Shown one piece after another: positions 19,201 through 28,200 of a DNA stretch of 64,000 bases (position 1 is its first letter; each line of letters starts with the position of its first letter). A program made the position numbers and the translations under genes. The notes beneath the pieces were generated by a model. The model was not told where the DNA came from. It saw nothing but the letters and a program-made list of their open reading frames with translations, and made no database searches. Source of the DNA: Apteryx mantelli (Eukaryota; Chordata; Aves; Apterygiformes; Apterygidae); NCBI RefSeq assembly GCF_036417845.1, contig NC_089990.1:2051001-2115000 (forward strand), written 5' to 3'.

Positions 19201-22200
19201 AATATCTTGCTTTTCTGTTGAAACAGAGAAGCTTGTTCATGTGTGTGCGAGATGGATTAATGGGCTTGTGGAGGGAGGGAGGTTTCTCTGACATGTTAGG
19301 CTGAGGCTACCACAAGGATGGGGTTAGAAGTATCGTCGGCTCTTTTCATACTTCTGTTCCATTTTAACTTTCCTTTTGTTGGGTTATTTTTGCCTTGCAA
19401 TTTTTTTCTTTTTATTTCACTTGAGTTTTGGTTTTGTTTTCCATTTTCCTGCTCTTTCCCTTCTCTCTTCCCCTACACTTTTCCGTTTCCCAGATCAGGC
19501 TGCAGCTGTGGGATACAGCCGGCCAGGAGAGGTTCCGCAGCCTCATTCCCAGCTACATCCGTGACTCTGCTGTGGCTGTCATTGTCTTTGACATTACAAG
19601 TAGGTATTGAGCCTGGGTGTCTGCAGAGGCCTTGCTGTTAACATGTGCCTTTTACGCACTGGAAGTGGTGGTGTTTTCAGAAAAGGCTGTTTCCTGAAAG
19701 GAGCTAAGATAGGCCCTCTGCCCCAGGACTGTAGGTATTTCACGGATGGATCTGCTTTTACTGAAGGGAAGTAGCTGAGCATCTTACCCCACACCCAATA
19801 GTAACTGCATTCCATGACATAGAAACTGGGAAATCTCTTGTCCGCTTGAAGCTCAAACTGGAAGTGACGTGCAGAGGATTGTCAGGTAGGTGAATTGGGT
19901 TTATATCTTCTTGTATGTCCTCGGTGATTGGTAGCCTTTGTAAAGGTATTTACTTTTTCTGTTTTTTAAAACTTTGAAATGAAAATTTCCTCTGTTCTGG
20001 ATAACTAGAGAATTAATAAAAGTAGCAACAACAGATGCCAAAATAATGAAACATTGTCATACTATGTAAAACAGTACAACACCTATTTAAATAAAAGCTA
20101 CTTAGAAGCTTGTGAGGATTCAGGACTTCCATTTCATTGAAGATGAGAGCTTGCTGTTCATATGAGCCACCAGAGAGCTTCTGAAATAGAAGAGACAAGT
20201 TTATACTTACCATAACTTCTAAAGAATGAACAAACTTAGAGGCTACTTCTCTGTAACTCTTGTCCAGAGAGTTTTAGTATAAAATGCAATACGAATATAA
20301 TAATTATTTCATTATAACTCCTTGTTATTGTTTCCACTTGATCTGGCTTTTTCAGTTAAGCTACAGTGTCAGCATAAATATGTGCGCAGGATTTAAACCA
20401 GTGAGCCAATACTGTGTAGACAAAGTCCAAGTAAAGAACATAGCACAGATGAAAAACATCTGGCTTGCTTCTGTTCTGTCACAAACTCTAGATTATACTG
20501 AGTCTTTACAGATCTGGGTTTTATTGCACTTTGCTAAATAGAAATGTTTAATAGGTAATAACAAAGTTCTGTTACCATGTCTCTTATGCAGAGAAGGCAA
20601 ATAATTAAATGGTCTTTGAAATTCCAGTCCTGTAGCTTAAGTACTTGTCTCGGGAGGATTTCTGGTTTGGTACAAAATAAAAATATAAAACTGAAGTGAT
20701 CTGTTCGGGGTTTGAGGAGCAACGAGATGTGCACATGATGACTTATTTTGGGAACAGATCTAAATGAGACAGAGTGGCAGGCTACAGAAGCTGGCACTTT
20801 TTTTGTCCCCCTGTTGGGATGGGTAAAGGATGCTATTTACACAGGCAGGTTGAAGAATCTATCACATTCCAGGCTGTTCTTAAGTTTGCAGACCTATCAG
20901 AAATGATTTAGTGATAGATGATCTCATCATGCCTTGGTAATAGTCTAATCTTTTCAGATAATTTAATTTTTCTTCTTCTTAGCCAGTGAGAGACTTTTAA
21001 ATCTCTTGTGTTTGTGAAGAAACATGCTTGTGTACTTCTGAGGTGATGATAATGGTGAACACTACTAATATTAGGAATACACATTTAATTTTCTTTACCA
21101 CTGTAAAGAGCTGCATATATGCATTGTCTTTTAGTAGTCACTGTATTCGGGAATCTCAACAGTCTCTTATAAGTTAATGCTGGTCAGCATCATGGCAGGG
21201 TAAAATAGTGACAGCTCCATATGACATACTTAAGTGCCAGCCAAGATGCTCTTAACTAGTAGAGAGAAACTGTTAGCTAGTACATGGTGGGCTGAGAAGA
21301 AAAAGAAAAATTGCTTGTGTTAACCTGCTGGGCATTTTGAAGTATTAGTTGGCTACAGAAAGAAAAATGGTGAGGCATACTGCAACTTGGCCCCTTGCAG
21401 AACAAGTTACCTTGTGTGCTGATTTCTGAGTGAGTTCATATTAGTGCTTGATTGAGAACTTCTCGTCTTTCCAGATCAGTGTTGTCATTAGCAAGAGGGT
21501 TGTATTTTTCTCTTCCTCTCCAAAAAATGGCTGCACAACAACTTGGACTTCTAGAAACCGGAGGCTACAGGAATATTGCAGCTAACTTTCCTTCTTAGGT
21601 CCCTTCAGGGATGCCTTCGCAGTACCTCCAGACTAGCTGAATGGTTTCCCTCAAACAGTGGTACCCTTCACTACAACAAGATCATCAATCTTCCACCAAG
21701 TCTGTAATACTTCCTTTAGTTGCATTTTTTGATCGTGAGTCTGAAGCTTGGAGCATTTAAACTACCAGCTAGGTAAACTTTCTGGGTGAATAGGCTGGTG
21801 AAGCAGCAATGTCTCGGGACTCTGTGGTAGCTCGTTGTGGCGTCCAGAAGCAAGAGCCTAAAGCTGTTATTCCCAATCTGATCTGCCCGCACTGGTGTAA
21901 TATTGTCCAAGTGCTAGGAGTTCATTGCCCTGCATTTTCCTGGGGTACTGAAGAGCCCCAATTCTTGGTAATGTAATCAAGGTAGTCTCCAAAATGAAGA
22001 GAACAATTCATAGGAGCTAATTGCTTCAACTATAAGCCCTAATTGTACTGAACACTGGCAGCAGTGTGGATGTCCTGATGTAGATACCATGTTGTTTTGA
22101 ATGCGCTTGTAGCAGGATGCTTTGCAGACATGTACTCTGTCCAGCTTCTGTTTTAAATTTCTCTTCTAAGCAAAATAACTGTTGGTCCTTCCTAAACTAC

Positions 22201-25200: not shown

Positions 25201-28200
25201 AATGTGCTGTGACCTGTTTGTCCCCTGTGGTTTTGGTGTTGCCCAAATGCTCAATTGAGAGACAATATGCAGCATCTTTGGCTGCACAAATTGGTATCAG
25301 GAGTTCTTCTTCATCCTTTGCCTGTGTACAAGCCATGCTGTTAGTTTTCAGTTTGCTGTGCCTAGCAGGAAAAGTATAGACAGTTCTATTACTGGTATGT
25401 GGTTTGAGTAAGCGGATGAAAAATGAGGTTAGATATTGAATGCCGTGTGGTCTTTGTGCTGCTGATGCTTAGAGATGTGTTTTTTGTCTACCGGCTGGAC
25501 CACTTCAATATTGATAACTGTTTGGCTTTCCCCAGTTCCAGTGGAGGTCATTCTAACTGTGCAGTGCACTTCAGAAATTTTGGGAAAACTTGGTGCTCAG
25601 AGCTTCACAAATAGGTAAATGTGTATAGATGGCTTGGATTAAGAAATCCAGGTGGCAAGAATTCAGAGCAGTCTGGTCAGCTTGCAAAATCAGCTTGTAA
25701 AAGCAACTGAGCAAAATTTGAGAAGCTGTTCTACTTAAGACAGCTCTGTATGCTGGCCAGTTAGCATCTCTTATGCCATACTGGGAGCTGCAAATAACTC
25801 CAGCTTCCTAACTGACTGATCTGGAGGTTAGATTTGAGGCTTTCTAACTTCTAAAAAACTCCTGTTTCTTCTGGAACTGAAAAACCCAATGGGATAATTG
25901 CTGCTTTAGATTGTTTTTTGATGGTATAGAAATAGTGTGTGTGCGCAGGACAGCCTTGTCATAAGAATAAGGCAACTAGAAACTTGTTTGCATCATAGCT
26001 ACAGTTGGAGTTCATGTGGCAGCAGAAATTCCTGTTGTAGAACTTTAATGTAGGTGACAGTAGTCCTGGACTAGCCTAGAATTAAGAGTTAGGGTGTATA
26101 TTCAGCTGTGCTGGTCAGCACAAGCTATCACTAAAAGAAGCCTCCTTGTCTTGCCTGTGAATTCTTGCTTTTAAGAGATTTGTGACAAGCCGAAATACCG
26201 GGCCTTTTAAGACTGGACAAAACCACAGATCAGTCTGAGATTGATCACGTTTTCTGAAATTGAATAGAGCCTACAGGAAACCCTTCATCCTGCGGTGAAA
26301 AACAAGTGATGAGGGAAGTTCAGTTCTACTGTCAAACATGGCTGAAGAGTTGAACTGCTAATAGCACTGTTTTTATTTGGTGCAGCCTGTTAAGTTTAGC
26401 TTTCCTGCTAATGTTGCTTTAGTTGGTTGCTGGTTTTTCTACATTTTTTTCTTTTTATCATTTTTGGACTATTTTTCTTTGTTTTGTTTTTTCTTTTCTG
26501 TGATTTGTTCTCATTGCTGTAGACAGGTTTCTATAGAGGAGGGTGAGATAAAAGCCCAAGAACTGAATATGATGTATATTGAAACCAGTGCTAAAGCAGG
26601 ATATAATGTGAAACAGGTATGTACAGGGTATTGATCAGAGATGCATTTGCAGGTGCTTTCTTGCAAGCAGCAGCATAGTACTTGCTGTTGCACTGTACTT
26701 GCTGCTGGAGCCTTTCGGACATCTTTCGTAACCTCATGGAGTTCCCTCCTGTTGAGTTTTGGGGAACTGCTTTTTGCATCAGGTGCAGCTAATGGGGATT
26801 CCTCTTTTCCCTTGAGGATGCTGTGAATGGGATTCAAAGGTACTACACAAACTTCATCCTGTGCTGATGATCCTTTATTAGTGGTCATAGGCCTGGTGAT
26901 CCCTGAACCACTTACCTGAGGTTGTTTCCTCCCTAGCTGGAACCTAATGAGGAACCTGGGGATCTTAAAAGCTCAGAGGTCCTGAGGTCTCTGCTTGTAG
27001 ATTATGCACTCTTGTAACGGGTGGTGAAGAGGCTCTCCATTGAAAAGCATCTCAATCACAAATATCTCTAATTCTTCCTGTCCTTCCCTTCTGTCTTTCT
27101 GCTTCTGTTTGCACCTTTGTCCAGGCAAATCACTACAGAAGAAGGTGAACAAAGAGCCAAAGAGCTGAATGTGATGTTTATTGAGACCAGTGCAAAGACT
27201 GGATACAATGTGAAACAGGTAGATCTATGTTATGTTTTAAAGATCAGTAAATCTGTACTTCACTGCTCCGTAGGCAGAGAATAAGTTTCTGCTTACGGTT
27301 CATGCTCCATCAGATATTTACCTGTTGTCTTTGTCAGACCCTGAGATTCTTCTTGCCTAATGACTAGTGCTGCTTCTTTATCTAGTGGAAGCTTCTTTCC
27401 TGTCAAGTCTGTGGTACCTTGTTAAAGCTAAGCAAACTTAACCTACCTTGAAGGAGAATCTAAAAATGGAATTTGCTGAGGGATAGGAATGTCACTATAT
27501 AGTGCAGCATGTCAAACATAATTTTGTACATTCCCTTTGCTTTTGTTAACAGTTAATGCAGTGTTTTCTAAAATCAGTGTTGACAGCAGTCAGGCTAATA
27601 GCATATGCTGATGCACCAGCATAGAAGTTCCTGGTTCTGTTTTTAAACCTGACAGAAAAAACGTAGAACTACAGAATAGTTGAGGTTGGAAGGGACCTCT
27701 GGAGATCGTAGACTTCAAATTGGTGATCAGTTTCTTGTGTTTCAATTTGTGCCCATTGCTTCTTGCTAAGAGCTTGTGATCCCACTCCCCGTTAGTTCAG
27801 GAAGCATTGTTCTGAAGCATGGCAGAATCTGGGGAATAAGGCAGCTGCAGGGCCCGAAGATTTGCAGGGAGCTTAAGTACTACTGGTGTCAGGAAGTCAC
27901 CCCACTGGGATATGACCTTAACAGTTTGCAGCACGCCAGCTGGTTAGGAGGTCATCCCAATGGCATTGGGAAGTTTAGTTGTGAGGGGGAGTGTTTTTAA
28001 ATGCCTATGGATATAATTCAGCTTAATCTTTGGTTCTGACTTACTGTCGCTTTATTTGCCATGTGGGTGTTGGCGGTGAGAACTTCTGTGACTAAAGGTG
28101 CTGAGGGAAGACATTAACTGCAGGGCCTTGCTGGTACCTCAATGGCTTGATTTTCCATGTAATACAATTTGGAGAGGTGGATGATAAGCCCTTGCCAAAG

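Follow-up and report, generated by a model that had tools for sequence, protein, structure and literature searches.

Two pairs of homologous exons in the RAB41 gene of Apteryx mantelli: a candidate combinatorial Rab6-like GTPase

In a 64,000-nucleotide (nt) window of the Apteryx mantelli genome (contig NC_089990.1, positions 2,051,001 to 2,115,000 of the forward strand), the gene RAB41, which encodes a GTPase of the Rab6 subfamily, contains two pairs of homologous exons, called here 4a/4b and 6a/6b. Judged from the genomic DNA of one assembly (1.5 Gb, 408 contigs), RAB41 has probably retained two tandem exon duplications, the members of each pair being most likely mutually exclusive, so that a single gene could supply up to four Rab6-like GTPases of 211 residues. 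Exons 4a (RAB6A'-like, 19494..19599) and 4b (RAB6A/RAB6B-like, 23376..23481) are 106 nt each, and exons 6a (RAB6A-like, 26523..26616) and 6b (RAB6B-like, 27125..27218) are 94 nt each; all four lie on the plus strand between AG and GT borders, at the coordinates given in a preliminary description of the window, and the members of each pair are adjacent, homologous, equal in length and phase, and open. Every choice of one exon 4 with one exon 6 (four of four combinations) gives a coding sequence of 636 nt and an intact protein of 211 amino acids, with GKTSLI, DTAGQE, NKTD, ETSAK and the terminal GCSC preserved in all four products.

The coding gene runs from the ATG at 13238 to the end of the stop codon at 30289 on the plus strand, which also carries the exons outside the pairs: exon 1 (coding part, from the ATG onward, 13238..13316), exon 2 (15423..15481), exon 3 (17260..17313), exon 5 (23801..23912), exon 7 (29010..29076) and exon 8 (coding part, to the stop, with its prenylation-type end, 30225..30289). 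Intron 7 (29077..30224) has U12-type signals (donor GTATCCTT, 8/8; branch TTCCTTAAC, 9/9), and such signals occur at the same intron place in RAB6A and RAB6B of this assembly. Two of the paired exons have a further AG at their start: exon 4b follows a tandem acceptor (cagcag, 23370-23376), whose upstream AG would insert one in-frame Gln ahead of V62, and exon 6a begins ACAG/GT (26523-26527), where use of the inner AG as acceptor would drop 4 nt with loss of the frame. A search of Rfam at gathering thresholds gave zero matches in 13000-31000.

Likeness of the exon copies to each other and to RAB6A and RAB6B

Compared in frame, 4a and 4b are identical at 86 of 105 nt and at 30 of 35 amino acids, and 6a and 6b at 72 of 93 nt and at 22 of 31 amino acids, with nonsynonymous and synonymous distances (dN and dS; method of Nei and Gojobori, NG86) of 0.073 and 0.91 for the exon 4 pair and of 0.147 and 1.24 for the exon 6 pair. 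When an equal number of differences was scattered randomly over one copy or the other, in 20,000 runs for each, a protein likeness as high as that observed arose at frequencies of 0 and 0.0003, according to the copy, for exon 4, and of 0.007 and 0.011 for exon 6; a stop was present in 39-48% of the simulated copies of exon 4 and in 55-56% of those of exon 6. The differences had been described beforehand as mostly silent or conservative, which fits exon 4 (9 of 14 changed codons are silent); in exon 6 they are half and half (9 of 18). Duplication by assembly artefact is unlikely, because the starts of the copies are 3882 nt (4a/4b) and 602 nt (6a/6b) apart and the introns are otherwise dissimilar. 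The repeat match continues 26 nt into the intron downstream of exon 6 and 2-3 nt at exon 4, and the 400-nt flanks of the copies gave local alignment scores of 20-27, read without a control. A repeat search (at least 40 nt, 13000-31000) returned six families, of which two are the exon duplications and the other four GC-rich repeats in intron 1. With nine exon peptides, tblastn found no further convincing exon copy in the window, the next best match for exon 4 having E 0.027 over 14 residues. The GC-rich repeats are diverged, lie at 13092-13974 (gene start and intron 1) and are built on a unit around GGAGCCGTTAGGGG; one family numbers 17 copies.

The first pair looks like the known pair of RAB6A, retained in a second paralogue. 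That pair, the alternative exons of RAB6A and RAB6A', was reportedly described by Echard and colleagues in 2000, and it occupies the same exon position as 4a/4b. Exon 4a agrees with RAB6A' at 32 of 35 residues and with RAB6A at 31, and 4b agrees with RAB6A and with RAB6B at 34 of 35. At the three positions that separate RAB6A from RAB6A', 4a agrees with RAB6A' at two (I62, A87) and 4b with RAB6A at two (V62, T87), 4b having I at 88, and a tree of five protein sequences sets 4a and RAB6A' apart from 4b, RAB6A and RAB6B with a bootstrap of 90. The margin by which 4a is closer to RAB6A' than to RAB6A, a single residue, speaks against the assignment. RAB41 further differs from the RAB6A/RAB6A' system in being another paralogue, in a 4a that keeps V88 (lacking the third A' change) and adds I91 and F93, and in carrying a second exon pair. 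RAB6B of this assembly has one exon 4, of the 4b type; in RAB6A this region consists partly of N, and the exon 4 comparison does not include it. Human RAB6A and RAB6A' differ by three amino acids and have many effectors in common (PMC5474736), and alternatively spliced rab6a is mentioned in fish, the exons being unspecified (PMC8933327, PMC8321248).

The second pair was rightly recognised in the preliminary description, which missed that the difference between 6a and 6b parallels that between RAB6A and RAB6B. Exon 6a matches RAB6A at 27 of 31 residues and RAB6B at 22; exon 6b matches RAB6B at 29 and RAB6A at 25. RAB6A and RAB6B differ at six positions of exon 6, at all six of which fly Rab6 has the RAB6A state; of these diagnostic sites, five in 6b read as in RAB6B and five in 6a as in RAB6A. 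With fly Rab6 as the single outgroup, five derived residues are common to 6b and RAB6B. RAB6A has a 6a-like and RAB6B a 6b-like exon 6, both in the known human structures and in this assembly, but there the choice lies between two genes, whereas RAB41 has both exons in one. When the assembly was searched with the peptide of 6b, 18 candidates were scored, of which four are Rab6-type exons 6 at E 9e-8 or below (6b, RAB6B, RAB6A and 6a), the fifth-best candidate having E 0.002; RAB6A (50 kb examined) and RAB6B (40 kb examined) have one exon 6 each.

Age and maintenance of the second pair

The exon 6 duplication is probably older than the split between RAB6B and RAB41, because 6b has RAB6B states and 6a keeps states of RAB6A and Drosophila. 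Trees and site counts are in keeping with this. In the exon 6 protein tree 6b groups with RAB6B (bootstrap 91), and the approximately unbiased test rejects all three topologies tested in which 6a and 6b are united (p-AU at most 0.003; 31 columns, with 1000 replicates flagged as few). Seven sites of the exon 6 DNA favour the grouping of 6a with RAB6A and 6b with RAB6B, and two each favour the alternatives; at codon positions 1 and 2 (nonsynonymous-type) the split is 5:0:0 for an old duplication. On such a history exon 6 would have been duplicated in the ancestor of RAB6B and RAB41, with RAB6A and RAB6B each retaining one type today, and RAB41 would be able to encode by splicing what RAB6A and RAB6B encode as two genes. 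Extended to both pairs, the ancestral vertebrate Rab6 may have had two mutually exclusive pairs, of which RAB6A kept pair 4 and an A-type exon 6, RAB6B kept 4b and a B-type exon 6, and RAB41 alone kept all four exons; we put this forward tentatively, at a little under an even chance.

Several results pull the other way. On DNA, a tree uniting 6a with 6b is not rejected (p-AU 0.36), and within the examined RAB6A and RAB6B stretches (50 and 40 kb) there is no relic of a second exon 6 at E 0.01 or better; moreover, exon 5 of the window has an L in common with RAB6B. All three speak for a rival history in which exon 6 was duplicated in RAB41 alone and later than the genome duplications. On that view 6b would be like RAB6B through the sisterhood of RAB41 and RAB6B, or through convergence or gene conversion, and 6a would have reverted to RAB6A-like states. 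Such a course is distinctly improbable, since it requires several reversions of 6a to ancestral states and sits badly with both the rejected protein topologies and the unanimous codon positions 1 and 2. Exon 6a also has four residues not shared with RAB6A (I143, Q146, M150 and Y152), positions at which the residues of RAB6A, RAB6B and fly Rab6 are in full or near agreement, and a branch-wise codon test did not reject neutrality of 6a, though its branches were saturated and its optimiser unstable, the free model for 6a falling below the one-ratio model.

The last two observations would suit a different account of pair 6, in which one member, most likely 6a, is a decaying relic: the gene would rely mainly on 6b, with 6a left out or included at background level. 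How long 6a could have drifted can be bounded by the chance of its meeting no stop and acquiring its private residues, with RAB6A exon 6 and RAB6B exon 4 as stand-ins for the ancestors of 6a and 4a: neutral drift is less than 5% likely beyond 0.12-0.15 substitutions per site for 6a and beyond 0.10-0.12 for 4a. A long-dead 6a or 4a is excluded on this estimate, with which a recent relaxation is still compatible, and drift of 6a up to about 0.12 substitutions per site would fit a relic. The donors of the four paired exons rank in the best 0.4-3.4% of the 1065 GTs in the gene (textbook matrix), that of 6a in the best 0.4%. With its frame open, its acceptor tract pyrimidine-rich and its close likeness to RAB6A, 6a is unlikely to be a relic.

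Exon choice, reading frame and protein consequences

The argument that these exon lengths tie the reading frame to the choice of one exon from each pair is right: all 12 other combinations of exons 4 and 6 lose the frame or hit a stop. With both or neither exon 4 (8 combinations) the stop falls 173-375 nt upstream of the last junction, and with both copies of exon 6 and one exon 4 it falls 137 nt upstream. If exon 6 is omitted while one exon 4 is present, the stop comes 3 nt beyond the last junction, for which reason that product would not be a classical target of nonsense-mediated decay (NMD). The frame would in this way partly guard exclusivity, as transcripts with both members of a pair, or with neither exon 4, would have stops far upstream of the last junction. 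Exons of a length not divisible by three are present in 60% of human mutually exclusive clusters (PMC5740500).

Three physical mechanisms by which the members of a pair might exclude one another find no support, which counts against the preferred account, although such pairs do not require physical exclusion. Steric block, by its usual definition a donor and a branch point at most 50 nt apart (PMC5740500), was rejected, the introns between the copies being too long at 3776 nt (4a-4b) and 508 nt (6a-6b), as was a U12/U2 mismatch, the cluster introns lacking U12 signals. Pairing between introns fared no better: in all eight tests it stayed within the range of 60 shuffles, no pair falling under the 5% tail (for the long introns, the 300-nt ends were used). 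The AG-free zones before the paired exons measure 57 (4b, beyond its tandem acceptor), 66, 75 and 98 nt, against 20-27 nt for the five constitutive exons of RAB41, and the length of the tract separates them from 31 constitutive controls in a post hoc rank test (p 0.004; 3 of 16 neighbour anchors were dropped, their acceptors being unclear). Five of those 31 controls (RAB6A exons 2 and 7, RAB6B exons 4 and 8, and one arrestin exon) nonetheless also reach 57 nt, and the zone of RAB6A exon 6 is 55 nt. Alternatively spliced exons whose branch points are distant have been described with long AG-free, pyrimidine-rich tracts (PMC1431707), and those of RAB41 are a hint of alternative splicing. No TGCATG (RBFOX) motif occurs within 250 nt of the four paired exons. 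Regulated exon choice, with removal of wrong-frame products by NMD, would be the likeliest account.

Four products would require that the two choices be made independently. If both pairs are used in coupled fashion, for example 4a with 6a and 4b with 6b, the gene would make two proteins instead of four, all else in the preferred account being compatible with this. Linked clusters are reported for human CUX1 (PMC5740500), and nothing in the sequence data demonstrates independent choices; yet no physical link between the clusters was seen, with exon 5 and an intron of 2610 nt standing between 4b and 6a. We consider coupling the less likely arrangement, if one with a real chance of being correct.

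The pairs were initially held to alter switch II and the guanine-binding region. This proved mistaken, as the members of each pair do not differ in switch II or in the G5 motif ETSAK: the differences flank switch II and SAK, and fall chiefly in the alpha4-beta6 segment. Those of pair 4 are at RAB6A positions 62, 87, 88, 91 and 93, and those of pair 6 at positions 136, 137, 138, 143, 144, 146, 150, 152 and 159, which we take to lie in the alpha4 helix, in beta6 and, for one residue, just after SAK. The choice at exon 4 would set T87 (RAB6A-like) or A87 (RAB6A'-like) residues beside switch II, and by the precedent of RAB6A and RAB6A' the residue at this position, T or A, decides binding of Rabkinesin-6. 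The choice at exon 6 would set a RAB6A-like or a RAB6B-like alpha4-beta6 segment while switch II and SAK stay constant, and from its position pair 6 would be expected to change contacts with partners or regulators on the face away from the switches.

Gene identity, known systems and meaning

Membership of the Rab6 subfamily follows from a Pfam Ras match (E 6e-59) and from the best PDB chains, which are of RAB6A, or of RAB6B for the core with 4b and 6b. The more specific identification as RAB41, made beforehand, is borne out by the neighbouring genes and by arrestin and START-domain genes near RAB6A or RAB6B in the same assembly. Upstream lies an arrestin gene, whose best chain is beta-arrestin-1, cone arrestin scoring slightly lower, and which we take to be ARR3 from gene order and from its C-terminal tail. 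On the downstream side are a gene with a START domain, a minus-strand gene for a PDZ protein (best PDB chain 1wi2, presumably PDZD11, which would make the neighbour PDZD11-like) and a kinesin (best chain KIF4). The order arrestin, RAB41, PDZD11-like, KIF4-like agrees with the human order, ARR3-RAB41-PDZD11-KIF4A, as expected of an orthologue. The START-domain gene, at about 33500-38500, stands between RAB41 and the PDZD11-like gene, which in human are adjacent. No relative of the gene was found among viral and prokaryote contigs, where 9 and 34 pattern matches, respectively, included none that tblastn supported as a relative.

The assembly holds three separate Rab6-type loci, with RAB6A on contig C1, RAB6B on C9 and RAB41 on C13. 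Its three arrestin matches are in the window (C13), 0.7 Mb away from RAB6A on C1 and 3.8 Mb away from RAB6B on C9, and the START gene has matches on C13 (in the window), on C1 (0.8 Mb from RAB6A) and also on C14. The recurrence of the arrestin and START families near the Rab6-type genes is in line with blocks from the vertebrate genome duplications, and RAB41 is a probable whole-genome-duplication sister of RAB6A and RAB6B, going by the two flanking families compared. One paper treats RAB41 as the product of a late expansion and gives primates and dolphins as the groups that have it (PMC3425129). A Rab6-type gene in an arrestin-PDZD11-KIF4A setting in Apteryx disagrees with a RAB41 confined to those groups; rab41 is also listed by name in a clownfish transcriptome paper (PMC5066260).

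Much of what is proposed here for RAB41 has precedents. Several mutually exclusive clusters occur in the human genes CUX1, CAMK2D, TTN and TCF3 (PMC5740500), which RAB41 resembles in having more than one cluster of homologous exons with frame-incompatible lengths, and from which it differs in that those clusters are validated by RNA sequencing, while the RAB41 pairs are known from genomic sequence. Tropomyosin, actinin, dynamin and others have homologous exon pairs older than the vertebrate gene duplication (PMC4465641); RAB41 is like them in an exon duplication that would be older than the gene duplication, but they keep the pair in several paralogues, whereas the exon 6 types of Rab6 appear to have been sorted between paralogues. 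RAB6 has no mention in the main text of either paper. As the preliminary description supposed, searches of open-licence papers yielded no report of a second Rab6 exon pair, although automated annotations may already list such isoforms, and they yielded none of exon 6 types sorted between RAB6A and RAB6B. Known, then, are homologous exons spliced in a mutually exclusive way, their origin before vertebrate gene duplication and human genes with several clusters; a second Rab6 pair and the proposed sorting of its types may be new.

If the proposed history is true, RAB41 would be a living copy of an ancestral combinatorial Rab6, with splicing that covers the choice between RAB6A and RAB6B together with RAB6A'-like versions of both. 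A splicing choice within one GTPase gene would have become a choice between genes, traceable to a single exon, the undivided form surviving in a sister gene. RAB41 itself would be an old vertebrate gene, contrary to the late-expansion account (PMC3425129). The exon 6 difference between RAB6A and RAB6B would likewise be ancient, and the alpha4-beta6 segment may be the place to seek isoform-specific partners.

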